A DNA stretch of 64,000 nt. Source: Diacronema lutheri. Taxonomy: Eukaryota > Haptophyta > Pavlovophyceae > Pavlovales > Pavlovaceae. The notes beneath the pieces were generated by a model. That model was given only the letters and a program-made list of their open reading frames with translations, was not told the DNA's origin and did no database searches. The stretch spans positions 1,178,001 through 1,242,000 of the forward strand of contig JAGTXO010000005.1 in assembly GCA_019448385.1 (NCBI GenBank). Reading direction: 5' to 3'. The position numbers were made by a program, and so were the translations under genes. Positions 1 through 55,262 of the stretch are shown here, piece by piece. The number at the start of each line of letters is the position of its first letter. Within the stretch, counting starts at the first letter, position 1.

Positions 1-3000
1 GGCCCTGCCGACGCACCGCGCCAGCTGGAGAGCCGCTACGGCGAGGCGAGCAAGCTCGACCTACCCCAAGATTCCACTACGGGCCGCGTCCTCGACGCTC
101 GCGAGGCCCAGGACCGCGCGCGCGTGCCTGCTGCGCCCGACGGCACAGCGCTGCGCCGCGTGCTCGACGCCGTCGGCGCGGGCGCGCCCGCGCAGCGCAG
201 CCCGCGCTGGCACGACGAGCGATGGGAGGAGGTCACGGGCAGCAAGGTTGGCGACGTCGTGAACGACAACGCCGGCGTCGCGCACGAGACGCTCACCGAC
301 GAGTACGTGCACCGGCGGCGGCGCGAGGTGCGGACCAAGGCGACGACCGCGGGCATCCTCGGCGAGGCCGTCGCGCTGCGCAAGCTGGCGGCCGCGTACG
401 GCATCACCGTCGTGTGCAACCTGCCGATGGTGCGTGCGGACCCGCACGACAAGAGCGCGCCGTTCGCCTTCTCGCCGGACGGGCTCGCGATCCTCCCCGA
501 AAACAACGAGCAGGTCCTCGTCGAGGTGAAGACGCTCACCAAGGCGGGCGCCACGGCGCACGAGGACGGGCCGCCGCAGCCGCACCGCGATCAGCTGCAG
601 CTCGGCATGCACGTCCTCGGCGTGAGCAAAGCGCTCTACGTGCAGTACCTCAGGCACGAGGACCGGATCGTCGTGCACGTCGTGACGCGCGGCGCCGGCT
701 GGCTTGCATTCGCGCAGCCGAGGGTGCAGGCCTTCTGGGCGCGCGTCGTCGAGCGGCGCGCGCGGCTCGAGCGCGCGCGCGCCGACCACCCGGCTGCGAG
801 CCGGCGGCACCGGCGGCAGCAGACGCCGGCCGGGCCGCCGCTCGTGCTCGCGCTGGACGGGCGCATCCCCGCCGCGCGCGCCGCCGCGCTGCACGCCGTC
901 GCGCACGGCACCGCGAGCGCGGCGGCGGTGACGGCGGCGGCGGCGACGGGCGACGCGACGGCGTTGCAAGACGCGATCGCGGCGCTGCGCGCGCCCGTCG
1001 GCAATGCGGCGATCGCCAGCGCAGCGCGTGCGGAGGGCGCGGCCGTCGAGCGGGCGATCGCGTACCTCGGGCAGCCGGCGGGCGACGCCGCCGCCCGCGG
1101 CACGGCCGAGGCGGCCGAGGAGGAGAGGACGGTCGACGCCGACATCTGCGCGTTGCTGCACCAGCTCGGCGCGAGCGTGGCGCACGTGCACGTCGAGGAC
1201 GCGGATTGCGTCACGCGTGAGCACTGGGGCGAGGCGGTGCTCGCTGCAGCGGACGACCCGTCGAGCGCCCCCGCCATTTCGAGCGTCATCGTCGCGCACA
1301 TCGTGCGCCTCGCCGGCTTTGGCGTCGAGCTCCCGCAGTCGATTCGCGTCGCCCCCAGCACGGCCGACTGGCACGAGGGCTGGCTCGACGTGCAGTGCGT
1401 GCTGCTGCGCACGCGCCGGCGCGGGCGGCGCGACGACGACTTTGTGGCCGTCGTCAGGCGCGGTGGGCGCTGGTTTGCGTGCGAGCCCGGCCGCGCGCGG
1501 CGGCTGCAGTGGCGGTCGGTCCTACGCCGCGCGCGCGGCGGCGTCGACGGGACCGGCGAGGAGGCGTTCGCGATCGTCTACGTGCGGCGCGGCGACGCGG
1601 CCGGCGACGCGGCTGGCGACGCGCAGGCCGCACGGGCGCGCGGCGGGCGCGCGCGCAGGCGCACGCGCGGCGGCACGCGCAAGCGCAAGCGCGGCGCCTC
1701 CGCCGGGCTCGAGGCGGCCGCGCCCGCCGGCGCGCCGGCGGGCGCTGCTCACCGCCCGCCCGCCAGGCGTGCCACGGTCGCCGCGCGCACCACGCGCTCT
1801 GTGACCGACGCGCGGCACTCGGCGCCTGCCGCCACGGTTGCACCTGTCTTCGACTGGCGCGCCGGCCGCCCGCCCCCTGCCGCCGCCGCCGCCGCCAAGC
1901 GCGGCCAGGCGCTCGAGCCGGGGCAGTTCGCGCGGCCGCGTGGGCGCGCGCCATGGGGCAAGGTCTGGGACAGAGTCTCGGGTGCGTGGGCGGACAAGCC
2001 GACTGGTGCTGCCGTCGCCGCCGCGCCGCCGCCGCTGCCGCCCGCCGCCGCGCCGCCGCCCGCCGCCGCGCCGCCGCCCACCGCCGCGCCGCCGCCCGCC
2101 GCCGCGCCGCCGCCCGCCGTCGCGCCGCCGCCCGCCGCCGCGCCGCCGCCGCCGCCGCCACCGGCGGCGCTCGGCCGCCGGCAGCACGTCGGCGCGGGCG
2201 GCAGCGCGGCGGGCCGGCGGCTCGCGGCCATCGCACGGCGGCAGCGCGGCGTGCGCGCGCCGCCGCCCGCCGCGCGCTTCCTCGCCACGCTGCCGCCACC
2301 GCCACGCGACGGCCTCGCGCGCACGAGCAAGCAGGCGCGCGCGAGGCGCAACGCGGACGGACGGCCGGCGCACGCGCGCGCGGCCAACGCGCGCGCCTTC
2401 TACCGCGGCGTGGAGCTCGGCGTGCACGCGACGCGCGCCATCGTCGACGCGCGCCACGCCGACCTGCCGCAGGCCGTCTTCGTGGCGGAGGCGCGGGCGA
2501 TCGTCGCGCGCTCCGCCGGCGGCGGCGCGCTGCTCGCGCCGGACGACGTGCGCGACCTGTGCGACGCGCAGACGGACGCCGATCGCGCTGCGATCTGGGC
2601 GTCGGTGGGCGCGCACGAGGCGACGCGCATCTTCGCGCTCGTCACGCGCAACGCGAGCTTGGCGGGCGCGGCGCTGCTCGTGCTGCACACGCCGGCGGGC
2701 GCGCCGGCGCGCGCGCTCGGGCTCGTGGCGACGCGCTCGCGCGCGCCGTCGACGGGCGCGCCGCGCGACGCGCACAGGGCGCTGGTGCAGCGGTTGGACG
2801 TGCTGATGGACGCGATCGCCGCGGCGCGAGGCGCGTCGCCGCTCGAGCTCGAGCTCGCGCTCGCGCCCGAGCCGCAGAGCGCGTGCAACGCGCGTGCGGC
2901 CGCGCTGCTCTGCCTGCAGGCCGTCGCGGACGCGAGCGGCCGTCCCGCCGCTGAGGACGCGCTGGCCGCGCTCGACGACGCGCGCGGCATCGACCGGCAC

Positions 3001-6000
3001 TGCCACGCCGTCCGGCAGCAGATCGAGGCGAAGCTCGCGTGGCGGCGCGCCGACGGCGCCGTCGGCGTTGACGGCGCCGACGGCGCGCCCGCGCTCGCGC
3101 CTGCCGCCGCACCGCCGGCGTGCGCGCCGGCGCACGCTGCCGGCGAGGCGGCGGTCGACCAGGCGATCGTCACGCGGGTGCGCGACGCGCTGCGCGCGTG
3201 GGCGACGACTGGCACCGCGCCCAGCGCGGCGGTGCTCGACGACGCCTGCGCCGCGTACACGGCCCGCGCACGCGCGCGCAAGGACGCGCGCACGGCGCTG
3301 GGCCCGACGCGCGCGGCCGAGCTGCTCGCCGCGGCCGCGCGCGGCGGAGCCGACGGGGCGGATGCCGCGCGCGCGCTGCTCGGCGGCACGCCGCGCCTGC
3401 TCGTCGTGCTCCTCTGCGTGCCCGTCGCCGCGCCGTCCGGCGAGCCGCCGCGCCCGGTCGGGCTGCTCGTCGCCGACCGGCCGACGGACGACTCGCGCCC
3501 GGCCGCGCTCGTGCGCTACGACTTTGCGCCGCTCGACGCGGACGTGGCCGTCGCGGTCGGCGCGCATGCCGTCGCGCTGGCCAGTGCGATCTGGCCGCTG
3601 CTCGCGGCCGAGGGGGAGCCGCGGCCATCGCCCGTCGTGCGCTCGCAGCCGCGCGGCGGCGACGATGGCGCGCGTGCGCTCGCAACGTTCGCGTGCCTCG
3701 ACGCGCTGATGACCGCCAGCGTCGGCGCGCACGGCCTCGCGGGCGGCGCGGGCATGCTGCCCGCGCTGGTCGCGCGAGGCGCCGCGGCCGCCCAGCGCGA
3801 GCGGCAGCTGCGCGCGGCCGCCGAGAGGCTGGGCGGCACGGTCGCTGGGTGGCCGGACACGGGCGCGAGCGCGGCGGGCGCGAGCGTCGACGAGGAGGCG
3901 CGCACGTACGAGGTCGAGGCGGTCGTCGACGAGCGCCGCAAGGCGGGCAAGAAGGTGACGTTCCAGTTCCGGATCAGGTGGCGGGGCTACGACGAGAGCG
4001 CCGACACGTGGGAGCCTGAGGCCAACGTGAGCAGCGACCTCGTCGCCCAGTTCCGCAAGACGCGCGACGAGCAGAAGCGGCGCGCGGGCGTATCGGGCAG
4101 CGGCAGCGGCGGCGCGGGCGCGGCGTCGGCATTGGCGTCGGCGCCGCTTCGCGCGCACGGCGAGTCGGGCGCCGCGGGCAAGCGCGCCGCGGCGGGTGCC
4201 GCCGCGAGCGCGCGCGACGCCGCGGGCGCGCGCGCGCCGAGCGTTCCCCGCGCGCGCGGCGTCGAGCGCGCGCGCGTGGACGAGCCCGCTGCGCCGAGCG
4301 CGCGCGCCGCCGGCGGCGCGACGGCGCGCACGCGCGTCAGCGTGCTCCCGGGCTTCGTGGTCAAGCGCTCGACGCTCAACGCGGGGCCGCAGGCGGTGAC
4401 GGCGCAGCCCGGTGCGCGGAAGGAGCTGCGGCGCATCGCGGCGGCCGTGCACAGGCTCACGACACAGGCGTACCGCGTCATCAACAAGGTGGTGCGCGAC
4501 GAGGCTGCGGTGGCGAGCGCGCAGGCCGTCGGCGCGGCGTCGGGCGGCCCGTCGACCAGCGTGCACACGTCGACCACGATGGACAAGGGAACCGTCCGTG
4601 CGATCTTCTCGGCCATCGGCTGGCACAAGGACGAGAGCACGTACGGTGCAGCGCCCCGAGGCAAGCCCGCCGAGCAAGCCGCCGCGCAGACCAAGGCGGC
4701 GACGGCGCGCGCCGTCGGCGAGATGGCCGAGGGCGTCCAGCCCGTCTGCGCGGTGGGCCTCACGGAGATCCTCGAGGCGGAGGCGACGCAGGTGTCCACC
4801 GCGTGCCTGATGCATCCATCGCGCGTCGTGAACGGGCTGCTCCGCGACGTCGTCCGCGCGGCAGTCGAGCGCGACGAGGCGCTCGTCGCGCTGCCCGAGA
4901 TGCAGCGAAACGCGCGCGTGCGCGAGCTGTGCGAGCGGCTGCTGCGCGGCGACGTGGAGGGCGCGCGCGTCGGCTGCCCCGCCGCGCTCGACCGCCACCT
5001 GCCCGACATGGTCCTCCACAAGATCGACTACAAGTGCACGCCCACGAAAAGGTGGAACTACGACCGGCACACGACGCGCTACTTCCTCGTGCAGATCCGC
5101 ACCCTGCAGCACGTGGCCGAGGGGCAGGCGCTGCTCTGCCGGCTCGCGCACATCCACACGCAGCTGACCGGACGGCCGCCGCGGTACAATGTGGCGCCGC
5201 TGCGCACGCACAATGTGCGCGCGAGGCGTGGCTGCCGCTGCCGCCGCCGAGCGCCCAAGCGCGCGCGCCGCCGCCGTGCGCGCCGCCCCGCGGCCAGGTT
5301 GGTCACGCGCCCGCGCGCTCGCGCGCCGCGCGCTGCGCGCAGGTGCCGCGCAACGTGCGCCTCGCCGCGAGCGCCATCTGGGTGACGCTTTCGGATGACG
5401 AGCGCAAGGAGCTGCGCGCGCGGCTCAAGGCGCTGGACCTGCGCGACCACGATGGCGAGCCGATCAAGTGGACAGGCACAAACGGCAACACCCCGCCGAT
5501 GTCGGACGTGCGCGTCAGGTACGCGGTCTTTGCGACGCGCTTCGACATCTCCAACCGCGTCTTCGACTACGCCGGGCGCGAGCGGCCGCCGGCCGATCTG
5601 CCGTGGCACGCGCGGCGCTCGTGGGTTGGCCTCGCGCCGCTGCCGCGCGTGCCGCTCCCGGGCCGGCAGCCCGTCAAGTCGGTGGTGACAGATGGCGTCG
5701 CCGTGCACGCCGTCGGGACCGTCCTCGTGCCGAAGGCGCAGGCGCCGGCCGGCGGCTCGGGCGTCCTGCACCGCTGGCGCCGGCCGGACGGGCGCATCGC
5801 CGTCGCGCTCGGCTCCGAGCTGCGGCGGGCGATCGACGTCGAGGCGGCGGTCGTCGTCGCGGCCGACCCGAACATGGGCAACATCACCACCTACTCTGCG
5901 CACGTCGGGCGGGCGGCCGTCTGGCGGCAGTTCACGCAGCGCGCGCGCGCGCGCGCCGCGGGCTTTGCGCGCGAGACGGCCAAGACCAACGCGGCGCGGC

Positions 6001-7067
6001 GGCGCGTGCGCAAGGACGGGCGCGGCGAGGAGTTCAGCGTGGAGGCGGACGAGGCGCGGCTTGGCGAGGCGCACAGCGCCAAGGTGCTCGGCGAGGGCGA
6101 GTTCCACGCCTTCCACCGCGAGAGCGCGCGGGTGCGCGAGCGCGCCGCCGAGCACGTGTACGACGCGCCGGCGCGCCGGAAGGAGCGCTGGCGGCGCGAC
6201 AGCGGCGGGCGGTCCAACGCGGCGCGCGTCGCCGAGGCGCTCATCGCGGCGCACTGTGTCGACGGCGTGACGCGCGACCGGCTGCTCGTGTGCGTGGGCA
6301 AGTGGCTGCGCGACCACAAGGGCGCGCAGCCCAAGGGCGCGCCGCCCGCCTTCCAGGTGGGGCTGCTGCGCGAGCTGCGGCGGCGCGGCGTCGCGGCCGT
6401 CTTCGTGCCCGAGCCGTACACGTCGATGCACTGCTCGATGCCGCGGCTCGCCAAGGGCGGCAGGCTGCAGCGCTGCGGCGCGGAGCTCGCGCAGAACCCG
6501 CGCCTGCCCGTGGCAAAGGGCGGCACGCGCACGGTGCACGCGCTCGTCATCTGCCCGGCGTGCAACGGCGGCAAGAAGCCCGTGCACCGCGACTACAACG
6601 CCGCGCGCAACATCTTCTACGACGTGCACGACATGGCGGCGCACGCGGCCGGGCGCGACACCACGTCGACGCCTGAGCGCTTTGCCCTCGTGCTCGCCTG
6701 GTGGGCGCGCGGCGAGGTGTGGGAGCGTGAGGAGCGCATGGTGCACGGCGAGGGCGACGACTGCGACGACGAGTGCGACGGCGACGACGAGGGCGACGAC
6801 GAGGGCGACGACGACGACGACGACGATGGCAGCGGCGACGGCGGCGGCGGCGAGGGCGACGGCGACGGCGACGGCGACGGAGGCGGCGGCGGCGACGACG
6901 ACGATGACGGCGGGGGAGGCGGCGGCGGCGACGGCGGTGGCGACGACGGCGGCGGGCGCGGCGGCGGTGGCGGCGGCGGCTCTCGCGCCCGCACCCCCGC
7001 CCGCGGAGCTGCCAGCGCCAGTGCCGGCGGCGGCAGCGCGCGCGGGCCGAAGCGCGGCCGGCGTTGA
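1..7067 (+). CDS. Giant YqaJ nuclease - chromodomain - Fanzor (TnpB-like) fusion protein, 5' end outside window
   Basis: The frame is open from base 1, so the start lies upstream; at least 2312 residues are in view. Residues about 121-205 carry the YqaJ/lambda-exonuclease pattern: GEA helix, SPDGL, VEVKTL, then QLQLGMHVLG. Residues 669-722 are a PPPAAA-type linker. Residues 1302-1352 form a chromodomain (TYEVE, IRWRGYDESADTWEPE) with the aromatic-cage Y and W positions. The C-terminal part is a Fanzor core: RuvC-I Asp in VVVAADPNMG (codon 5865), RuvC-II Glu in VPEPYTSMHC (codon 6411), a Cys-type zinc knuckle ending CPAC, and RuvC-III Asp in HRDYNAARNI (codon 6591). A very acidic, Gly-rich tail follows (about 6740-6960). 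Exon 1 (1-5214) joins exon 2 (5343-7067) in phase 0. Fanzors are RNA-guided DNA endonucleases; the role of this fusion is inferred. All catalytic residues are present and the frame is intact, so it may be functional. Confidence 0.85.
5215..5342 (+). other. Spliceosomal intron inside the Fanzor fusion gene
   Basis: 128-bp intron with donor GTGCGCGCGA and acceptor GCGCGCAG. Removing it joins RTHN to VPRNVRLAAS and moves the reading frame from one long ORF to the next exactly in phase. The boundaries match the introns of ordinary genes in this window (for example HMBS and SYF2), so the gene is adapted to host splicing. Confidence 0.8.
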
Positions 7068-7688
7068 CGCACGGCCGAGCCGCGCAGCGGTCGACGCTTT
7101 GCGGGCTCTGCCCAGGTCGCGCGCGGCTGGCGACGCGTGCCGCGCGCGGCACGACCGTGCACGCCGCCACCCGTGGCCGAGCGCGCCGCACCAGCCGGCC
7201 CGCTCCAACCGCCGTGCGGATCACGGACGCTCGCTACGGCTCGTCGGCGCGCGTCACCTGCGCCGGCGGCCACGGCGCCGTCTGCTCCGGCCTCGTCGCG
7301 AGCAGCCCGACCGCTGCTCGCCGCCCGCACGCCGCCGCAGCAACGCTGCGCGTCGTGCTCCCCCGCTCGCCAAACGCGAAGAGCTCCCTCACAAGGACGT
7401 CCTTCCGAACGGCCCGCGCTGCACTCGGGGCGCGATCGTGCCCCTGATCGGATTTGGCTTGACCATCTATACTGTGTTGTGCACTTGGGAGTACAACCGT
7501 TCCAGCGGGCATGGCCGACGCATGACGCGCACGGTCACGCATCGGTCATGCCGCCACCGGTATGGGGTGCGCGAGCTCGGCGCGCGCCAGCGACGAAGAG
7601 ATGGCGTGTCCACGCCGAACGACGCCGCGGCGCGCACGTCCGCCCTCGTCTGACGTTCGCTCGAGTGCGCGACGGCAGCGGCAGGCGT
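7068..7688. other. Gene-free stretch between the Fanzor fusion and the ABC gene
   Basis: About 620 bp with no ORF that resembles a known protein. Most is GC-rich like its surroundings, but roughly 7440-7510 is less GC-rich. If the Fanzor gene belongs to a mobile element, its right end and a 3' guide RNA (omega RNA) would be expected here. I see no convincing terminal inverted repeat, and the left end is outside the window. Confidence 0.4.
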
Positions 7689-9959
7689 CTAGCCATACAT
7701 GTTCACCTGCCGGCCGGCGCCGCCGAAGCGATCAAAGCGCGAGCCGCCCGACGAGGCAAACATGGAGACGACGGGCTTGGCGGGCGGCTCGACGTCCATC
7801 GCCGCACACGTCGACGGCGCGGCTTCGACGTTTGCGACGGGCGGCGGTGCGGCCATCGCCGCCTTGCCCTCGGCCTCAAGCTCCGAGCGCAGCCGTGCGC
7901 GCACTGTGCGGTACAGGCTGCCGCTCTCGCGCGCGCGCGGCTGCGCAGCGTCTGCGGCGGCGAGCGCGAGATCTTCAGCGTGTCCGTAGTGCACCACCTT
8001 GCCCGCCGAGACGTGCAGCAGCTTGGTGGGCCAGCCATCGAGGCCGTCCAGAATGTGGGTCGCGTACACGACGCTCACGCCGCGCGTCTCGCTCTCCTGA
8101 ATGAAGGTGGGCGGGAGGGACCGGGCGGCGGGCCGCGCGACGACGTGCCCGTGAGCACGGCCTGCCATGCGGCCGGCGTCGCGCACGGCGCACGACGTCA
8201 CGCGCGGGCGCGCGGCGGGCTGCGCTGCTCACCTCCTTGAGGAAGGAGAGGAGGGACTGGCGTGCGAGGAGGTCGAGGTCAGTCGTCACCTCGTCCATCA
8301 AGTAGATGTCGCAGGGGCGGAGGAGCTTGAGAAGAATCTGGATGCGCCGACGCTGTCCGTCCGACACGGCGTTCATGCGCCACGTCGGGTCGAGGTCGAG
8401 CGCGGCGGTGAGCCGCGCGAGGCGCGCGTCGAGGAGCACATCGTCGTACATCTTCTCCGCCTTGAGCGCGCTGAGCGCGTTGGCCGCCATGAAGCCGGCT
8501 TCAAAATCCGCCTGGTACGGCACGCCGCTGCCCACGCACGCGACGGTGCGCGACCAGTCGCCCGTGAGCAGCGCGACGCGCGTGTTGAGCGTCTGCACGT
8601 CGGCGAACGCGTCGCGCCCGAGGATGCGCACGCTACCCGCCGAGACCATGTGCTTGCCGCCGAGGATGCGCAGCAGCGAGCTCTTCCCAGCGCCGTTCGC
8701 GCCGGTCAGGAGCACGCGCTCGCCGTGCGCGATCTGCACGTCGACGCCGTCGAGCGCGGGCGGCAGCGTCGGCGCGCCGCGCACGCCGGCGGGCGGTGCG
8801 TACGACCAGCGGAGCGCGCGCACGTCGATGGCGTGCGCGCCGGCATCGGCGAGCGGCGCGCGCGCTGCGGACGGCGCGGCGCGGCGGCCGTCGGCGGCGC
8901 TGAGCAACGCGGCAAAATCTGGCCGCGCCTCGAGCAGCCAGCCCTGGATCGCGCGGAAGAGGATGCCCGCCGCACGCCCGTCGGCGGGCGCGGCGGGCGC
9001 GGAGTGCACGGCGAGCTCGGGCACCGCGCCCACCTCCGCGTTGGTGCGCAGGCGCGTCTGCTCGATGTGGCAGATGTGCGTCGCCCAGCCGTCGAGGCCG
9101 TCAAAGATGTGCGTGCAGTACACGACGGTGACCGCCTTGTCGTCGCACTCCTTCTTGAGCCACGCGAGCAGGTCCTGCCGAACGATCAGGTCAAGGTCGG
9201 TCGTAATCTCATCGAGGAGGAGCACTTTGAACGGGCGGAGGAGCTTGAGCAGGATCTGCACGCGCCGGCGCTGGCCGTCGGAGGCGGCGGTGAGGTTCCA
9301 CCCGCGCTTCACGCCAAGCAGCGCAATCAGCTCCTCCAAACGCGCCGGGTCCACCCCCACCGAGTGCGAGTCGATGAGCGTCTGCACGGCCATCGCCTGG
9401 TAGGGCACGCCGTGGCCGACAAACGCGACCGTGCGCGTCCAGTTGCCCGTGAGCAGCGCGACCTCGTTGGCGAGCGCCGTGTCCTCAAAGGCCTTGCGCG
9501 AGAGCACGCACACGTCGCCGTTGCTCACCATGTGCTTGCCGCCAAGGATGTTGAGCAGCGTCGATTTGCCTGCTCGGCGCGCGCGCGCGTGGGCTTGCGC
9601 AGCGCGCGTCAGCGCTGCGCGCAACGCAGCGGGGTCGGCGCGGGCGCGCGGGCGGGCCGGACCGGCGGCGCACCCGAGCCGTTCGAACCGGTCATGAGGC
9701 AGCGCGCGCCGCGCGGCAGCTCGAGCGAGATGTCGCGCAGCTGGATCTTGTAGACGATCTCCTCGCGCGCCTCGTGCTGCCGGCGCGGCAGGTCGAGTGA
9801 GAGGCCGCCGTCGCGCGTAGTCTTGCGCTCGTCGGCGCCATGCGCCGACTCGTCGGTGACGAGACGCTTGACCGTCGAGTTGATATTCTGCGCAACCTCG
9901 TAGCTAAAGTACAGGTTCTTCACCTCGATCACCGCCGACGCGGACGACGACGACAACAT
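7689..9959 (-). CDS. Tandem CAF16/ABCI-type soluble ABC ATPase with two nucleotide-binding domains
   Basis: Three exons: 9959-9674, 9569-8233 and 8096-7689 (676 aa). The introns are 104 and 136 bp; the first splits the Walker A motif GSNGSGKST. Each half has a full ABC set: Walker A (GSNGSGKS; GANGAGKS), the CAF16-type signature SDGQRRR, Walker B with LLLDEITTDLD or YLMDEVTTDLD, and the switch segment VVYCTHIFDGLDGW or VVYATHILDGLDGW. There are no membrane segments. Yeast CAF16 and plant ABCI19-21 are single-domain proteins of about 300 residues associated with transcription or CCR4-NOT, so this gene is an internal duplication and may act as an intramolecular dimer. It diverges from the FKBP gene, with 84 bp between the start codons. 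The lumen of any organelle is unlikely because there is no leader. Confidence 0.85.
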
Positions 9960-10043
9960 CTTCTGGAAGGTTACGCGCGATTCCCGCAGCGCGAAGACCG
10001 AACTTAACAGAAGAGTCGACGGTTGTGTGAGTACCAAGCAAGC
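9960..10043. promoter_or_regulatory. Bidirectional promoter, ABC ATPase / lumenal FKBP
   Basis: Only 84 bp separate the two divergent ATGs, so both promoters and both 5' leaders must lie here or overlap the coding regions. The segment is locally richer in A/T than the flanking genes. No TATA box is evident. Confidence 0.5.
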
Positions 10044-10747
10044 ATGGCCGCATTGATTACGAGGACGAGGGCGCGATGGTTTGCGGTCGCCGCGGCCGCG
10101 GTGACCCTGCCGCGCGCGGCGGCGCTGACGGCGCGCGCGTCGGCGCTCACGCGACGGTCGATGCTCCTCGGCGCCGGCACGGGCGCCCTCGCCGCGGCCA
10201 CCTCTGCCGCGCCGGCGCTCGCGCGCCCGGCGCCATCGGACGGCGCGTGGGCCAAGCACGACGGCGCGTTCGCAGGCGTCGAGTTCGACGGCTTCAAGAA
10301 GACGCCGTCCGGGCTAGAGTACAAGGTCTTTGAGGAGGGCTATGGCGTGAAGCCCACCGCCGGCCAAGGCATCAAGGCGCACTACGCCGGCTACCTGCTC
10401 GACGGCGCGAAGTTCGACTCGTCGTATGATCGGCGCTCGCCCCTCGGCTTCGCCGTCGGCACGGGCCGCGTAATCAAGGGCTGGGACGAGGCGCTCCTCG
10501 ACATGCGCGTGGGCGAGAAGCGGGTGCGCCGCCATGCCCGCCGCCCACCCACGAGGCGGCGCGGACGGAGCGCAGACTCCTCCGCCCGCCGAGCTGCCCC
10601 ACACCCCCGCCCTTGCTGTTCGTCCTCGCCCTCCCGCAGGTTCTCAAGATCCCGGCTGCGCTCGCGTACGGTAAGCGCGGCGTTGGGCCAATCCCCGCGG
10701 ACTCGACGCTCGTCTTCTTCGTCGAGCTCGTCGCGATCACCGGGTGA
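10044..10747 (+). CDS. FKBP-type peptidyl-prolyl isomerase, thylakoid lumen targeted
   Basis: Exons 10044-10523 and 10640-10747 (195 aa); the 116-bp intron is GTGCGCC...CCGCAG. The N-terminus has a signal-like stretch, a transit-like region and then a twin-arginine lumenal leader (RRSMLLGAGTGALAAATSA) ending at an A-x-A site. The FKBP domain is complete: LEYKVFEEGYG, VKAHYAGYLL-type strand, FDSSYDRR, FAVGTGRVIKGWDEAL, IPAALAYGKRGVG and STLVFFVEL. The family isomerises X-Pro bonds; lumenal members help assemble photosystem and cytochrome complexes. I chose the first ATG of the frame; upstream in-frame codons are TTG only. Confidence 0.88.
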
Positions 10748-11318
10748 GCCGGCTCAGCGCAGCGCGACGGGAAGCGCCGCCGCGCGCGCCGCGGCAAGGG
10801 AGACCGCAGGCGGCAGGACATGCGAGCGCAGGCATGCGAGGGGAGGCCAGACAGACGATCGAGCGCCGGATTGTTGGGGCGGGACCCGCGAGAGTTGCGG
10901 AAGGAGAGGCTGCCCCTCGAAGCTTTTTTGACACAAAATAAGGGGGCGCTGCCCTGGGGCTGGAGACCCCGCCGGGGGGCGGGGGGCCGTTTTTCATGTT
11001 GCCGATTAAAGAATGCTGAGGAGGAGAGGCTCTCGCTTGGTTGAGGCTGGTCATCTGCCAAAAAGTGCGCCATCTCGACCGTTTTCCCGTTGGCCGGTTC
11101 AAAAATCGTTCGAGTGGCCAATTCCATTCGATTGGCGGGTTCAACAATGCCAATCCGTCGGCAAAACCTCCGATTGGCCAGGCTAATTCGATCGGCTGGT
11201 CAAATACCAAAATGACGAACCCGTCTGAGGAAAATCGTTTGGATTATAGCATCCCAGGGCTCGGTGTCCACCTCAGCTCTGTTTTAAAAAGCTGAGGGGT
11301 CTCCAGGATATTGACTGG
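10748..11318. other. Intergenic stretch with lower GC and a CCAAT-box cluster
   Basis: 571 bp between the FKBP stop and the GPATCH3 start. The first part is GC-rich; the part from about 10920 is much richer in A/T than anything nearby and holds a G/C-rich patch near 10960-10990. No ORF here resembles a protein. The CCAAT cluster is listed separately. Confidence 0.5.
11118..11177 (+). promoter_or_regulatory. Cluster of four CCAAT boxes upstream of GPATCH3
   Basis: CCAAT lies at 11118-11122 and 11150-11154, and its complement ATTGG at 11131-11135 and 11173-11177. That is four boxes in alternating orientation within 60 bp, about 140-200 bp before the GPATCH3 ATG, in an AT-richer island. This is the usual distance and arrangement for NF-Y-type promoters. 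Function is inferred. Confidence 0.45.
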
Positions 11319-12680
11319 ATGGCCGTGCTCCGCGTTGGCGGGATCCCGGCCGACTGGGCGTGCGCCGACCTGAGAGACTTCTTCGCCCCCGAGATCGAGC
11401 GCGAGGTCTTCAGCTGCTTCCACTTTGTGCGTGCGCCCGATGCGCACTCCTCCGGCTCGCTCTGCGCGCTCGCCGCGATGGCTGACGCGGACGCTCTGCG
11501 CGCGCTCATCGCCAAGTACGCCGGCCGGCCGTGGTCCGAGAGCGCAGCCGAGCGCGTGTGCAGGCTCGAGCCGTGCCGCGCTCTTCTTGCGCCCGCGTCC
11601 TCTGCTCGTGATGGCCGAGCCGATCGCTTCCGCACGCGCGCACAGCGCCGGGAGCGCGGCGCGGTGCGCGAAGGCGGCTCGCCACGCGCGTCAGAGCTCT
11701 GCGCGCCGAGCTGGCTGCCGCGCGGCAACGTGGGCAGCAGTGCGGCGGAGCTGCGCGCGGCCGTGGCGCATTGCCGCCTCTCCGCTCGCGACATTAGCCA
11801 GCTTGGCCTCGAGTTTGCGCTCGGCAGCGCCGCGCTCTCGCGGCGCGGTGCGCGCTCCGAGCCGTGCGCCTACCGCGCCGGGCAGCCGGTGCGCGCGCTG
11901 CGGCACGCCGCGGGCTCCCTGCCCGCAGAGCTGTGCGCGGCGGGTGGCCCTGTGCGCGTCGGAGCATCTGTGGCCGAGCGGCGCGCAGCCGCGCGCGCGG
12001 CCGCGGCGACGAGCGCGCGCGGTTGCTGGCTGAGCGCACACGGCGCGACGCGCGGCGACGCCGGGCGCGGGGACGGCGACGCGACGTGCGAGGCCCACGA
12101 CGCGGACGAAGGCGGCGCGGCATATGCAGACGCGGACGAAGAGCCGGACGACGCGGAGGAGTGGGATAGGCACGAGGCGACGACCGAGCCCGGGGCATGG
12201 GAGCGCAACGACCGCCCGACATTTGCCTACTGGAACAGCGGCAACCACCACCTCTTCGAGGAGGAGGTGGAGGGCGTTTGGGAGAAAGGCGGCTCCGGCC
12301 TCGCGTTCTATACGGACGATGCTTTTTGGGACAAGGCGATCAGCGCCGAGGAGCGGCTTGTCGACGGCTGGGACACGCACGAGCCCGACGACGAAGACGG
12401 CGACGGCCTTGAGCCTCGGCCGCGCGTTGCGCTCGAGCCGGGAGCACACGACCACCGCAACGTGGCCGCCGAGGGACCCGTCGCGCTGGTCGGCGCAGCT
12501 GCGCGCCGGCGCGCGCACGCGCGATCTCTGCAGCTTGACGCAACAAACCGTGGCTTCCAGCTGCTGCAGAAAATGGGCTGGAGCGAAGCGCACCCCAAGC
12601 TCGGCAAGCGTGCGCACGGCGCGGTGCAGCCGGTTGCTGTGAGCATGGCCCACAAGCGGGGCCGGCGCGGGCTGGGATGA
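11319..12680 (+). CDS. GPATCH3: GPATCH3-like G-patch protein
   Basis: Single exon, 453 aa. The N-terminus (MAVLRVGGIPADWACADLRDFF) matches the RNA-binding-like start of GPATCH3. The diagnostic central block FAYWNSGNHHLFEEEVE, then WEKGGSGLAFYTDDAFWD, is present at about residues 304-342. The C-terminus has a short G-patch (FQLLQKMGWSEAHPKLGK) and ends RRGLG, the usual GPATCH3 tail. G-patch proteins bind nucleic acid and often activate DEAH helicases; the human protein is nuclear. The acidic middle is low-complexity. It converges with the CxF-repeat gene; only 25 bp separate the two stop codons. Confidence 0.82.
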   Translation: MAVLRVGGIPADWACADLRDFFAPEIEREVFSCFHFVRAPDAHSSGSLCALAAMADADALRALIAKYAGRPWSESAAERVCRLEPCRALLAPASSARDGRADRFRTRAQRRERGAVREGGSPRASELCAPSWLPRGNVGSSAAELRAAVAHCRLSARDISQLGLEFALGSAALSRRGARSEPCAYRAGQPVRALRHAAGSLPAELCAAGGPVRVGASVAERRAAARAAAATSARGCWLSAHGATRGDAGRGDGDATCEAHDADEGGAAYADADEEPDDAEEWDRHEATTEPGAWERNDRPTFAYWNSGNHHLFEEEVEGVWEKGGSGLAFYTDDAFWDKAISAEERLVDGWDTHEPDDEDGDGLEPRPRVALEPGAHDHRNVAAEGPVALVGAAARRRAHARSLQLDATNRGFQLLQKMGWSEAHPKLGKRAHGAVQPVAVSMAHKRGRRGLG

Positions 12681-12705
12681 TACCACGGCCCGCCGGCTTT
12701 CAAAT

Positions 12706-14770
12706 CTAGGCCTTCCGGCATGCCGCACGCGCGCTCGCCCCCGACGGCTGGGCCGCCGATTTGTCCGGCAGACGCCCGACGTTCATCGGCTTGAACGTGC
12801 ATGCCTCGAGCTCGGCGCGCAGCTGGGCGGCGTGCGCGCGCGGTGCGCGCGTGGTGAGGCGGCAGGCACGAGCTGCGCGCGGCGCGCACCCGCCACGTTG
12901 CGCGCGCGCGCACATTGGCCTCGCGCACGGAGTCGAGCAACTGCTGCTTGAGGAGCGCGCGCTCCTTCATGCGCGCGATGAAGCCCGACGGATCGGACGC
13001 GATCTTGAGCATCCCGTCGACCCCCTCGAGCGCGGCCGATGTGAGCGGCACGGGCAGCAGCTGCTCGCTCTCCCGCTCGCGCGCGCGCTCGGCGAGCTCG
13101 GCGTGCACCAGCCGCCTGTGCGTCGCATCGCCGTACGCCAGCTCGTTGACCGAGCGGGCGCGCCGCGCGCGGGACGACGGGTTGATGCGCGGGTGAAATG
13201 TGCACTCCGTTGCGTCCGCGTCCGCGAGTGGCGGCCGCCCGAACTCGTGCGTACGTTGCTCGTACCGCTCGACGGACCCCTCCACGCGCCGCAGGAAGGC
13301 GGCGCGTGCGCGCGCGCGCTCGGCGCGCTGCTCGGCCGTGGGCGGCTGCGCGTGCGCGGCCTCGTCGAGGCGGAGCGCGACGATCTCTCGCTTGCGCAGC
13401 GTGCGCGCCTGCCTTTGCAGGAATTGATGGAAGCGCAGCCGCGCCTCGTGCAGCTGACCGCCATGCCGAGGCGTGTTGCCGTCATCGCTGGCATCTCCGT
13501 TGCGCGCGCGCGAGTCGTTGGGGCGCGCCCTTGGCGCTGATGCGGGGCGCGTCCCGCCGCTGCCGCCGCGCGCCGTGCGAGCCGCGGGCGGCGTCGCGGC
13601 GCGCGCGCGCAGCGGGTCGGCCGGGGCGCGCCGCTGCGCAAGTCGCTCAAAGGCGTTCATGCTCAGGTAGGTGCGCACGCCCGCGCTCAGCTCCTCGGGC
13701 GCGCGCGCGCGCGCGATGAGCGTCGGCTGGCGTGCGTCGCGCGGCGCGGCGGCAGGCGGCTCGGAGCAGCGCGCGCCCCTCGCCTCGAGATAGCGCGAGC
13801 GGACGAGCGGCGCGCCGCGTTGCGGCTGTGGGGGCGACGCACGCGCGTCGCGCGTGTGCGCTCCTTTGGCCACGCTCGTCGGGCGGCCGTCAGCGCGTGC
13901 GTCGGTGCTCGCGCGCCGCTCGCGCCGCCGCTCGCGCGGCGGGCTTGCCGAGCGCGCGCGCTGCCGCTCCCCGCCCGCCGTCTCGCGCCGAGCCGCGCGC
14001 ACCGGCTGCGGTCGCGTCGCCGCATTCCTTCCGCGCGAGAAGATTCGGGGCGTGAAGGAACAGTCGCGCATCTCCTCGGCCTCGTGCGCCTCGCGCAGGG
14101 ATGCGCGGTGCGCGAGCCGCTCGCGCTCCCACGCGCGAGAACGCTCGTACACGCCGGCGGGCGGGAACGCGGCGTGCTGCACGAGCAGCGGCGCGGGTAC
14201 GACGCCGCCGCGCGCGTTGCGCGGCAGCCGCGACGCGCGGTTGATCGCGGGGCGAAAGGTGCACTCGGCGAGCTCGCGCGCGTCGCGCTGAGCCTCGAGC
14301 TCGGCCACGTTCGCCTGCCAGCTTGGGTCCATCCGCACCGGGTATGCCGGGTCCGCGCGCGCTGGCCGGCTCGTTCCGTCCGCGCGGCGGTTGTACGGAT
14401 GTGCGAGCAGCCCGCCCGCCGCATCGGGCCGGCCGTCGGCCGCGCGCGCCGGCTTGGCGCGCATCGCCGCGAACAGCTCGGCGCCGTGCGCCCAGGGGTA
14501 CCCACGCGGGTCGTCTGGCTCGGCCGCCCACACGCTCCCCTCGTCCGATGGCCGGCGCGGCGCGGCGTGTGCGCGCGCCGGCTGCTGCGGCTCGGGTAGC
14601 CGCGGCTCGGCGGCGGCGTGATTGAGTTGCGCCAACGTGGCACGCTCGGACGACGCCGATGGCAGCGCTACGCGCTCAATTTCACCCCACAGCTCCGCAT
14701 CGCTCATCCGGCCCGACTTGAACTGCGCGATCAGCGTGGTGAATCGGCCGTGCGGGTCTTCCATGGCCAT
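12706..14770 (-). CDS. Ciliary-type coiled protein with CxF-x-P repeats
   Basis: Exons 14770-12914 and 12822-12706 (657 aa); the 91-bp intron starts GTGCGCGCG. The protein is basic, Ala/Arg-rich and low in hydrophobics. It carries at least four copies of a short motif: ECTFRPAIN, DCSFTPRIF, ECTFHPRINP and, after the intron, ACTFKPMNV. Repeats of the type C-[TS]-F-x-P-x-[IM]-N recur in flagellar and basal-body proteins of algae and protists, and CFAP91 and the dyneins lie on the same window, so a ciliary role is likely but unproven. I chose ATG 14770 (MAMEDPHGRF) because the longer frame starts only at GTG. The stop is 25 bp from the GPATCH3 stop. Confidence 0.6.
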
Positions 14771-14844
14771 CGTTTGAATATTGTGGCCGTCACGAGGCTG
14801 AGTGAAAGCAGTGAGTGTGTGGGGCCTCACACTGACAGCCGCAC

Positions 14845-20428
<5,584 letters not shown>

Positions 20429-20514
20429 CCCTGGGCGCCTCCTTGGGAGGCCAAGACGGCCCTGCTGAAGCCAGGAAAACGTTTTCCTGCCCATCATTGA
20501 AATTGGGCGGCACG
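20429..20514. promoter_or_regulatory. Bidirectional promoter CFAP91 / membrane C2H2 protein, with 18-bp palindrome
   Basis: 86 bp between the divergent start codons. It contains the perfect palindrome CAGGAAAACGTTTTCCTG at 20472-20489, roughly midway. A palindrome centred in a bidirectional promoter is a good candidate for a dimeric transcription-factor site serving both genes. Confidence 0.5.
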
Positions 20515-21660
20515 ATGGCGGTGCGCGTGGTAGCGGTGCTGCTCATCGCGATGTCGGATGGCAGGCACGGGAGCTCGGGCGTGTCCGCCGAGCTCGCGGT
20601 GAGACCGCGCCTTGCGCCGATGGAGCACGTGCTGGTGCCCGAGACCGACGCCGCGGAGTTGATCGCACGCGATGGACGTGCTACCGGCGATACGGATGCC
20701 AACGCCGATGCCGACGGCGACGATGGCGACGACGGCGACGACGGCGACCATGACAACGGAGACGGCGTGATCGAGGGTGCGGTAGACGACAATGGCGCGG
20801 CGCTGGCCGATGTCGGCGCCGTCCCGACCAATGTGCCGCCATCCGACCCTGCGCCGGCCGCCGCCGGAGCTGGTCCGACGCTGGCCGAGTTTGTGCCGAT
20901 ACCCGACCGGCCAAAGATCCCGCAGCCCGACTTTGGCTCGGCGCCCAGGCAGCCTTGCTCGCGCGCGCTGTCGCGTGAAGCACGCCGTATCGTTGACGAG
21001 CATCTGATCGCAAAAGCGCGCGCGCATGGCGTGCAGATCGACGCGCGGTGCAAGCTGCACCCGCAGAGCGACATGCTGCGCGCGCACGAGCTCAACAAGA
21101 GCGCGCTCGCGGCCGCGCAGTGGAAGTGCCGGACGTGCGGCAAGGTCTTTCGCAGCGAGGCGTATGTGGATATGCACATGGACCGCGCGCACATGGACAC
21201 CGTCCCGAACGACGCGAACATCTGCCTGGCCGACTTTTGCGACGTCCTCGGCTGCAGGTCGACGCTGCCAGTTGCGGGCGGCGCGTGCTCGGCGCAGCGC
21301 ATGCAGAGCAGGCGCGTGCTTTGCCAGCACCTTGTGCACAATTGCTTCCCCCCTGAGATCAATGCGGACTATTGGCACGCGCACGAGCTCTTCGAGCACG
21401 AGCTCTGCGAGCGGCTCACGTGCGACCCTGCAGGCATCGGCGCCGAAGTGCGAAACCATGGCGCGCGGACGCTTCGCATCGTTGGCACGGTGGTCGTCGG
21501 AATCGTCTTGGTCGTCGTGGCCATCGGGATCTGGTGTCACGAGATGGACGCGCGGAGCGGACCCGACCTCCGCAGACGGAGTGGCCGCCCGCGGGCCGGC
21601 CGGCGCGACGCGTGGGCCTGGCTTGGCCGCGTCGTCGAGCGGCGCGCGCACTTCGATTAA
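20515..21660 (+). CDS. Membrane-anchored single C2H2 zinc-finger protein
   Basis: Single exon, 381 aa. The N-terminus is a signal-like hydrophobic run (VRVVAVLLIAM), followed by a highly acidic DADGDDGDD tract. A C2H2 finger lies at about residues 204-225 (CRTCGKVFRSEAYVDMHMDRAH). It is followed by a Cys-rich block with C-LADFCDVLGC, CSAQ, CQHLVHNC and CERLTCDP. One transmembrane helix follows (LRIVGTVVVGIVLVVVAIGIW) and then a basic tail. If the signal is cleaved, the finger faces the ER lumen or cell exterior, which is unusual for a C2H2 finger. Similar secreted or membrane single-finger proteins of unknown role exist in plants and protists. The function is unknown. Confidence 0.65.
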   Translation: MAVRVVAVLLIAMSDGRHGSSGVSAELAVRPRLAPMEHVLVPETDAAELIARDGRATGDTDANADADGDDGDDGDDGDHDNGDGVIEGAVDDNGAALADVGAVPTNVPPSDPAPAAAGAGPTLAEFVPIPDRPKIPQPDFGSAPRQPCSRALSREARRIVDEHLIAKARAHGVQIDARCKLHPQSDMLRAHELNKSALAAAQWKCRTCGKVFRSEAYVDMHMDRAHMDTVPNDANICLADFCDVLGCRSTLPVAGGACSAQRMQSRRVLCQHLVHNCFPPEINADYWHAHELFEHELCERLTCDPAGIGAEVRNHGARTLRIVGTVVVGIVLVVVAIGIWCHEMDARSGPDLRRRSGRPRAGRRDAWAWLGRVVERRAHFD

Positions 21661-55126: not shown

Positions 55127-55262
55127 TATTTATTTCACCTATCGCTCGCTGGTGACCGGGATGCACGGTGATCGACGACATTGGTGGCTACTCGATCCCC
55201 CCGCAGCTGGTGCTGACCCCGCTGTCCTGACGTAAGCGCCGTTATTAGTATTTATTTCACCT
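55124..55262. repeat. 17-bp direct repeat pair
   Basis: TAGTATTTATTTCACCT occurs at 55124-55140, where its TAG is the stop codon of the membrane protein, and again at 55246-55262. The copies are 122 bp apart in the convergent gap with the OTC gene. They stand out as AT-rich in a GC-rich genome and may be 3'-end (polyadenylation) signals or a short duplicated segment. Confidence 0.75.

Follow-up and report, generated by a model that had tools for sequence, protein, structure and literature searches.

A predicted YqaJ, chromodomain and Fanzor fusion gene in an amplified 31-kb element of the alga Diacronema lutheri

Results

A giant predicted gene at the start of the window

The stretch analysed here, called the window throughout, comprises 64,000 nucleotides of DNA from the haptophyte Diacronema lutheri (assembly GCA_019448385.1, contig JAGTXO010000005.1, positions 1,178,001 to 1,242,000). 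It begins inside one copy of a mobile element, with sequence common to the copies stopping at window position 7472, and this part of the element carries a giant gene predicted to encode a YqaJ-type exonuclease module, a chromodomain and a Fanzor nuclease (Table 1). One frame is open over window positions 1-5385 and a second is open to a stop at 7067; a predicted intron joins them, giving the splice product ...NVAPLRTHN/VPRNVRL.... Identical residues are joined in another copy by a public gene model, KFE25_006464, which contains the last 70 codons of exon 1; the comparison is of residues, at the level of the gene model. Three relatives, with identities of 39, 44 and 45%, start at the first residue past the intron, and P0003, which is 99% identical, starts five residues later than those three. 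According to the consulted part of the genome paper, the annotation was made by BRAKER2 with RNA-seq (PMC8379373), and the RNA-seq published there comprises three libraries. KFE25_006464 (P0008, C69:1672449-1675608) links the last part of exon 1 and the first part of exon 2 with a SAM-domain gene; the model may be a chimeric annotation, or the sequence a fragment that was captured.

Table 1. Features of the element copy in the window (window coordinates).
Feature	Position	Strand	Basis and remarks
3' part of the window copy	1..7472	+	Copies diverge beyond 7472; 5' end outside the window, at C82:1172500 (about -5500)
YqaJ/lambda-exonuclease module	184..759	+	PHROG 434, TIGR03033, Pfam YqaJ, motif
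HP1-like chromodomain	3907..4059	+	Pfam Chromo; alignment to CDYL structure 2dnt
Probable Fanzor N-terminal half	4330..5214	+	By position ahead of the intron
Predicted intron	5215..5342	+	GT-AG, 128 nt, phase 0; read from sequence
Exon 2, Fanzor nuclease core	5343..7067	+	PF07282, motif test, relatives; acidic and Gly-rich tail
RuvC residues (codon starts)	RuvC-I D 5865, RuvC-II E 6411, RuvC-III D 6591	+	In exon 2
Cas12f1-like TNB / OrfB zinc ribbon (PF07282)	6375..6614	+	Amino acids 345-424 of exon 2
3' non-coding end of element	7068..7472	+	Terminates in ATCTATAC; boundary from copy comparison; candidate region for a guide RNA

The exonuclease module is detected by several profiles. Window 1-5214 matches PHROG 434, a RecE-like exonuclease, at 4.8e-16 (amino acids 62-253), and the domain used alone as query matches TIGR03033, a lambda-exonuclease family, at 2e-7 (positions 3-151 of 153; 31.3 bits, cut-off 68) and Pfam YqaJ at 2.5e-4 (positions 2-147 of 150); with the whole exon as query the Pfam match is 0.0092 (16.7 bits). 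At 28.2 bits, the C71 copy exceeds the Pfam YqaJ cut-off, and it is the sole copy in the genome-wide Pfam listing. The motif residues are encoded at E364-366, D478-480, E523-525 and K529-531, which, by motif, we take to be the likely catalytic codons. The chromodomain matches Pfam Chromo at 2.2e-12 (amino acids 1303-1353) and the solved CDYL chromodomain at 3.1e-11. When aligned with the CDYL and HP1 structures, its aromatic residues Y3907, W3979 and Y3988 (codon starts) fall on Y, W and Y, and presumably form the aromatic cage.

In exon 2, PF07282 is found at 1.7e-6 (28.5 bits, cut-off 26.3), and the NCBIfam profile guided_TnpB at 0.023, far below its cut-off. The TnpB/Fanzor motif D-X(125,275)-[TS][TS]XX-C4 zinc finger-X(5,50)-RD, as given in the consulted part of PMC3627910, is present in P0002 and P0004, whereas none of 2000 sequences made by shuffling P0002 1-470 contains it. 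The RuvC-I aspartate is invariant in all four aligned rows, and the RuvC-II glutamate and RuvC-III aspartate are conserved in each of the three rows long enough to include them. The probable N-terminal half has no Pfam match of its own. Sequence searches reached no solved Fanzor chain, Cas12f1 appearing only at E 0.13 to 0.26, and no solved YqaJ-type chain. The original prediction for this locus had proposed one spliced frame holding a YqaJ module with its acidic residues, a chromodomain with aromatic-cage residues and a Fanzor core with three RuvC acidic residues and a zinc motif. Each of these parts was recovered here, by profile matches for all three domains, by the E364, D478 and E523 motif codons, by the chromodomain alignment to CDYL, by a PF07282 score above cut-off together with the published motif, and by the predicted 128-nt intron, across which KFE25_006464 joins the same residues.

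Its limits for the feature, 1..7067, had to be widened: in the window copy the frame reaches back to about -3074, and the element extends from about -5500 to 7472. In the element as a whole the giant frame opens near position 15437. It is unbroken to the end of the examined piece in five of seven copies (2,267-2,297 codons) and broken in C75 and C1r; in the C34 copy it has 0 stops in 2,272 codons, against 7 to 22 in each of the other five frames. For 96 of 517 candidates, the length of the frame surrounding the final 71 codons of exon 1 was scored. Of 95 copies scored, 64 have a frame of at least 4,000 codons, and in 37 it runs for 4,490-4,520 codons; given this composition, a stretch of 4,500 codons would stay open by chance with a probability of about 1e-16. 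The predicted protein would reach about 5,000 amino acids (the frame minus intron read-through, plus 574 amino acids of exon 2), with Pro/Ala-rich linkers between the domains. Ulp1-like protease motifs had been noticed by eye in the giant frame and were discarded, as five pieces searched at E up to 10 gave no protease match.

A 31-kb element with many copies

The complete element measures 31,051 bp (about 31.05 kb) in the C75 copy, which served as reference. Alignments between copies give sharp common limits on both sides: on the left, C9a, C1r, C9b and C34 match the reference from -23578 or -23577, C69 matches from -23571 (in two pieces) and C84a not before -19185. Searching the genome for further copies, a check that the original prediction had proposed, gave at least 40 full-length matches of window 1-1600, with identity given as 100%. 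Patterns for the element's ends, allowing at most one mismatch, had 233 (5') and 230 (3') matches in 43.5 Mb, and reversed patterns had none in the same 43.5 Mb. The element is highly and recently amplified. Pairing the ends listed on contigs C1-C40 (90 at 5', 98 at 3') gave 65 pairs, of which 29 span 30.8-31.2 kb, 11 span 21.3-21.7 kb, 8 span 29.0-29.6 kb, 6 span 26-27 kb and 11 have other lengths. Contigs C1, C5, C6, C10 and C12 start, and contigs C8, C13, C14, C15, C32 and C33 end, within about 9 bases of the element's right end. We read these limits as assembly breaks at a long repeat; since contigs break at the element, its true copy number may exceed the count. Telomere targeting, raised by copies lying equally distant from several contig starts, was rejected: C12 starts on the element's last base, and the flanks of other copies are ordinary and differ.

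The window copy is 12,973 bp long (12.97 kb), with both ends present and an internal deletion: element positions 2379-20569 are absent and 122 bp of other sequence stand in their place. Simple 5' truncation is ruled out, since the 5' end is present (L002:4500) and it is the middle that is deleted. One copy of the 21.5-kb class, L087 (C34:390201-400200, minus strand), belongs to a diverged subfamily: its first 2,378 bp are 99.8% like the 31-kb form, and the interior pieces that align to that form have 88-95% identity, a pattern that suggests mosaics formed through recombination between elements.

Other genes of the element

Upstream of the giant gene the element encodes a PIF1 helicase (element 3368-5241, in two frame pieces, at 3.7e-14 and 1e-24) with a PIF1 2B domain (5245-5772, 1.5e-12), and an open reading frame (ORF) with a UCH-like domain (6883-8376, 4.3e-8). 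PIF1 has at least 150 genome matches, and the three that were compared each lie 4,562 bases from an element 5' end. A 1,345-amino-acid ORF at element 11740-15774, upstream of the giant gene, has no Pfam match, and none of 7,979 scored candidates was recognised as a homologue. For the PIF1 protein, an SSB-like N-terminus was guessed by eye and discarded, as it gave no match.

At E values of 1 or less, 30 ORF pieces from the element matched no transposase or recombinase family (and neither a tyrosine recombinase nor a reverse transcriptase, a DDE transposase or a polymerase); the scan did not extend to every ORF, those outside it being in many cases antisense or short, and small exons could escape it. 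Genome-wide, Helitron_like_N, the Helitron Rep, has a single match (L086, C63:35738-36019, 8.3e-23, 91 of 191 positions), at a broken-looking locus that has neither the element's end nor its coding sequence. The tyrosine recombinase family PF00589 has 16 genome matches, against about 230 matches of the element ends. KDZ transposase (PF18758) has no genome match, and control genomes were equally without one. Just right of the element, on the minus strand at window 7975-9903, lies an ORF of 642 amino acids that looks ABC-ATPase-like by eye and contains two GKS-type ATP-binding stretches.

Ends, target sites and flanks

The core GGCGCGG follows TATATA plus C or G in 44 of 47 left ends, and 36 of 38 complete right ends are ATCTATAC. 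Short motifs of like orientation lie at the two ends, CTATATAC on the left and CTATAC on the right, similar and not identical. Terminal inverted repeats are not above chance: the longest inverted match is 6, a length reached by 299 of 300 shuffles. Among 38 copies with both flanks (18 and 20 in two sets), 37 end pairs show no recognisable abutting target duplication, bearing in mind that a very short one could hide in the TA-rich end motif. The sole clear case, C9:2907808, has an abutting 12-13 bp duplication and an odd left end, and another copy has a 9-bp flank match that does not abut.

The GC content of 20-bp flanks is 0.61 on the left (47 ends) and 0.55 on the right (34 ends), that of the genome being 73.25% in the consulted part of the genome paper (PMC8379373); the flanks are AT-rich relative to the genome. 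Clean empty sites were not found, and the flanks share small AT-rich repeats with one another and with window 55173-55242. A small AT-ended repeat of this kind, around GTCGTTAGTATATA and seen at window 55173-55242, adjoins several insertions (L023, L033, L062, L064, L065 and L082), and the element may favour the AT-rich ends of the repeat around GTCGTTAGTATATA. Near the left end, at element positions 48-65 of the C75 copy (near L033:1267-1284), a perfect 18-bp palindrome was noticed by eye, possibly a protein-binding site.

Discussion

The fusion of a YqaJ module, an HP1-like chromodomain and a Fanzor in one predicted spliced gene is supported, because all three domains have profile matches, the very long frame is kept in most scored copies and KFE25_006464 makes the same splice. 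The element that carries the gene is most likely a giant transposon, equipped with a Fanzor and of a type not yet described. YqaJ/lambda exonucleases resect DNA ends and chromodomains of the HP1-like kind read histone H3 lysine 9 (H3K9) methylation. Fanzor is RNA-guided, and its discoverers suggest, in the consulted part of their paper, that cutting aids the spread of the element (PMC10432273). We infer that RNA-guided cutting followed by resection by the element's own exonuclease is plausible. In the cycle that we envisage, the Fanzor, with an RNA from the element's right end, would cut sites that lack the element; YqaJ would resect the cut ends, and repair, aided by the helicase, would copy the element in or restore it. 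The chromodomain could tether the protein, or the insertions, to H3K9-methylated chromatin, and first integration would occur through a recombinase yet to be recognised. A Fanzor element of about 31.05 kb combined with this cycle of cutting, resection and repair-copying, a chromatin tether and integration by a separate recombinase is our best joint explanation, with a probability of roughly 0.5.

A number of observations weigh against this explanation. The frame is shorter than 4,000 codons in 31 of 95 scored copies, and differences between copies show no third-codon-position excess (7, 7 and 6 differences in 4,621 bp), so that no purifying selection is claimed. The window copy scores 21.8 bits against Pfam YqaJ, 0.2 under the cut-off of 22, and the TnpB/Fanzor motif is not satisfied in the relative P0005, nor in the short P0006. 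Both AlphaFold models are unusable, that of the YqaJ module alone, built from a single sequence, having a predicted local distance difference test score (pLDDT) of 40.9 and that of Fanzor exon 2, built from four rows, one of 43.9. As to a guide, the RNA fold of the right end has a z of -1.13, not significant against shuffles, and Rfam has no match in window 5000-7700. Lastly, a search with the chromodomain plus the Fanzor N-terminal stretch returned only KFE25_006464 and an unrelated chromodomain protein, and no other species with the fusion.

The three domains might also not be one protein, the common long frame giving rise to separate transcripts or to a precursor that is cut into enzymes. 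A protein of about 5,000 amino acids would indeed be extreme, Pro/Ala-rich linkers part the domains, KFE25_006464 covers no more than the last part of exon 1 and the first part of exon 2, and the upstream portion of the gene is missing from the window copy. Separate products would nevertheless have to account for the 2,272 stop-free codons of the C34 copy, against 7 to 22 stops in its other frames, and for an open stretch of 4,500 codons whose chance occurrence is so small; we regard them as possible but unlikely. How the element moves admits further answers. It could be a rolling-circle element of the Helitron2 kind, with an HUH Rep that either escapes detection through divergence or acts from elsewhere, the Fanzor, YqaJ and chromodomain being captured helpers. 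The absence of inverted repeats, the near absence of target duplications and the single 12-13 bp duplication beside an odd left end are as in the Chlamydomonas Helitron2 Fanzor elements, to judge from the consulted part of PMC3627910, and a PIF1-type helicase and a cysteine-protease-like domain are known in some Helitrons (PMC6431247, consulted in part). This is countered by ends that are not TC...CTRR, by asymmetric inverted repeats that are not beyond chance, by 3' ends that are not in excess of 5' ends (230 vs 233) and by the lone Rep match, on C63, which sits in no recognised copy of the element, and we hold the Helitron2-like origin only as a tentative alternative.

A Crypton-like origin, in which a tyrosine recombinase, unrecognised in the element or acting in trans, would insert a circle at AT-rich sites, appears improbable. 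Like-oriented short end motifs, with no inverted repeats and hardly any recognisable duplications, would fit the description in the part consulted of PMC3627910, and the genome does hold tyrosine-recombinase matches, 16 in all; these are nonetheless few beside some 230 ends, those compared with the end lists fall outside the element, and none came from its 30 ORF pieces. The boldest possibility is that the giant transposon spreads without a conventional transposase: Fanzor cutting and a phage-type kit (lambda exonuclease and PIF1) would copy it in by resection and repair, the chromodomain would steer it to silent chromatin, and cutter, resector and reader would be combined in one giant protein. 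We consider this version doubtful at best; if true, transposase-free spread would be categorically new.

The role that Fanzors play in their host elements is an open question in the field. A Fanzor that shares one frame with a resection enzyme and a chromatin reader, and that is carried by a highly amplified element of a culturable alga, makes the cut-and-repair idea directly testable. The element also points to giant transposons, with neither inverted repeats nor a recognised transposase, that annotation can miss: the consulted part of the D. lutheri genome paper names long terminal repeat (LTR) and long interspersed nuclear element (LINE) sequences as most of the annotated repeats, and the stem 'transpos' appears nowhere in its main text (PMC8379373). 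Fanzors inside transposons are themselves already known, among them the Helitron2 elements CRe-1, 2 and 3 of Chlamydomonas (PMC3627910, consulted in part); what appears new is the fusion and its 31-kb host element. Among the open-licence papers searched, none names Fanzor together with YqaJ, three name Fanzor with chromodomain and one names Fanzor with haptophyte; the consulted part of PMC6338049, one of the three, does not hold this fusion. Scans of viral contigs with the Fanzor profile, YqaJ and PIF1 gave no relatives.

Among known systems, as far as the consulted parts of the cited papers describe them, the Fanzor1-carrying transposons and the Helitron2 elements CRe-1, 2 and 3 (PMC3627910) are alike in the Fanzor motif, the zinc ribbon and the mobile-element setting, a likeness at the level of Fanzors in general; CRe-1, 2 and 3 and the D. 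lutheri element also share the lack of inverted repeats. The D. lutheri element differs from them in its size of 31 kb, in the fusion of its Fanzor to YqaJ and a chromodomain and in having no Helitron Rep match. With SpuFz1 and other cleaving Fanzors (PMC10432273) it has the RuvC catalytic residues and the transposon setting in common, whereas the SpuFz1 element is about 2.1 kb long with inverted repeats and the D. lutheri element is 31 kb long and has none; RNA-guided cleavage was demonstrated for SpuFz1 and those other Fanzors, while the D. lutheri Fanzor is predicted from its sequence. Terminons, Teratorn and Polintons (PMC6431247), and also Starships, likewise reach tens of kilobases and carry several accessory enzymes; unlike in those giant transposons, the 30 D. 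lutheri ORF pieces scanned matched none of the tyrosine recombinase, reverse transcriptase, DDE transposase and polymerase families. Finally, the likeness to lambda exonuclease, YqaJ and RecE-like phage nucleases extends over the whole domain, which the profile matches span; unlike these phage enzymes, the D. lutheri module sits in the predicted protein of a nuclear transposon, where it is fused to other domains.

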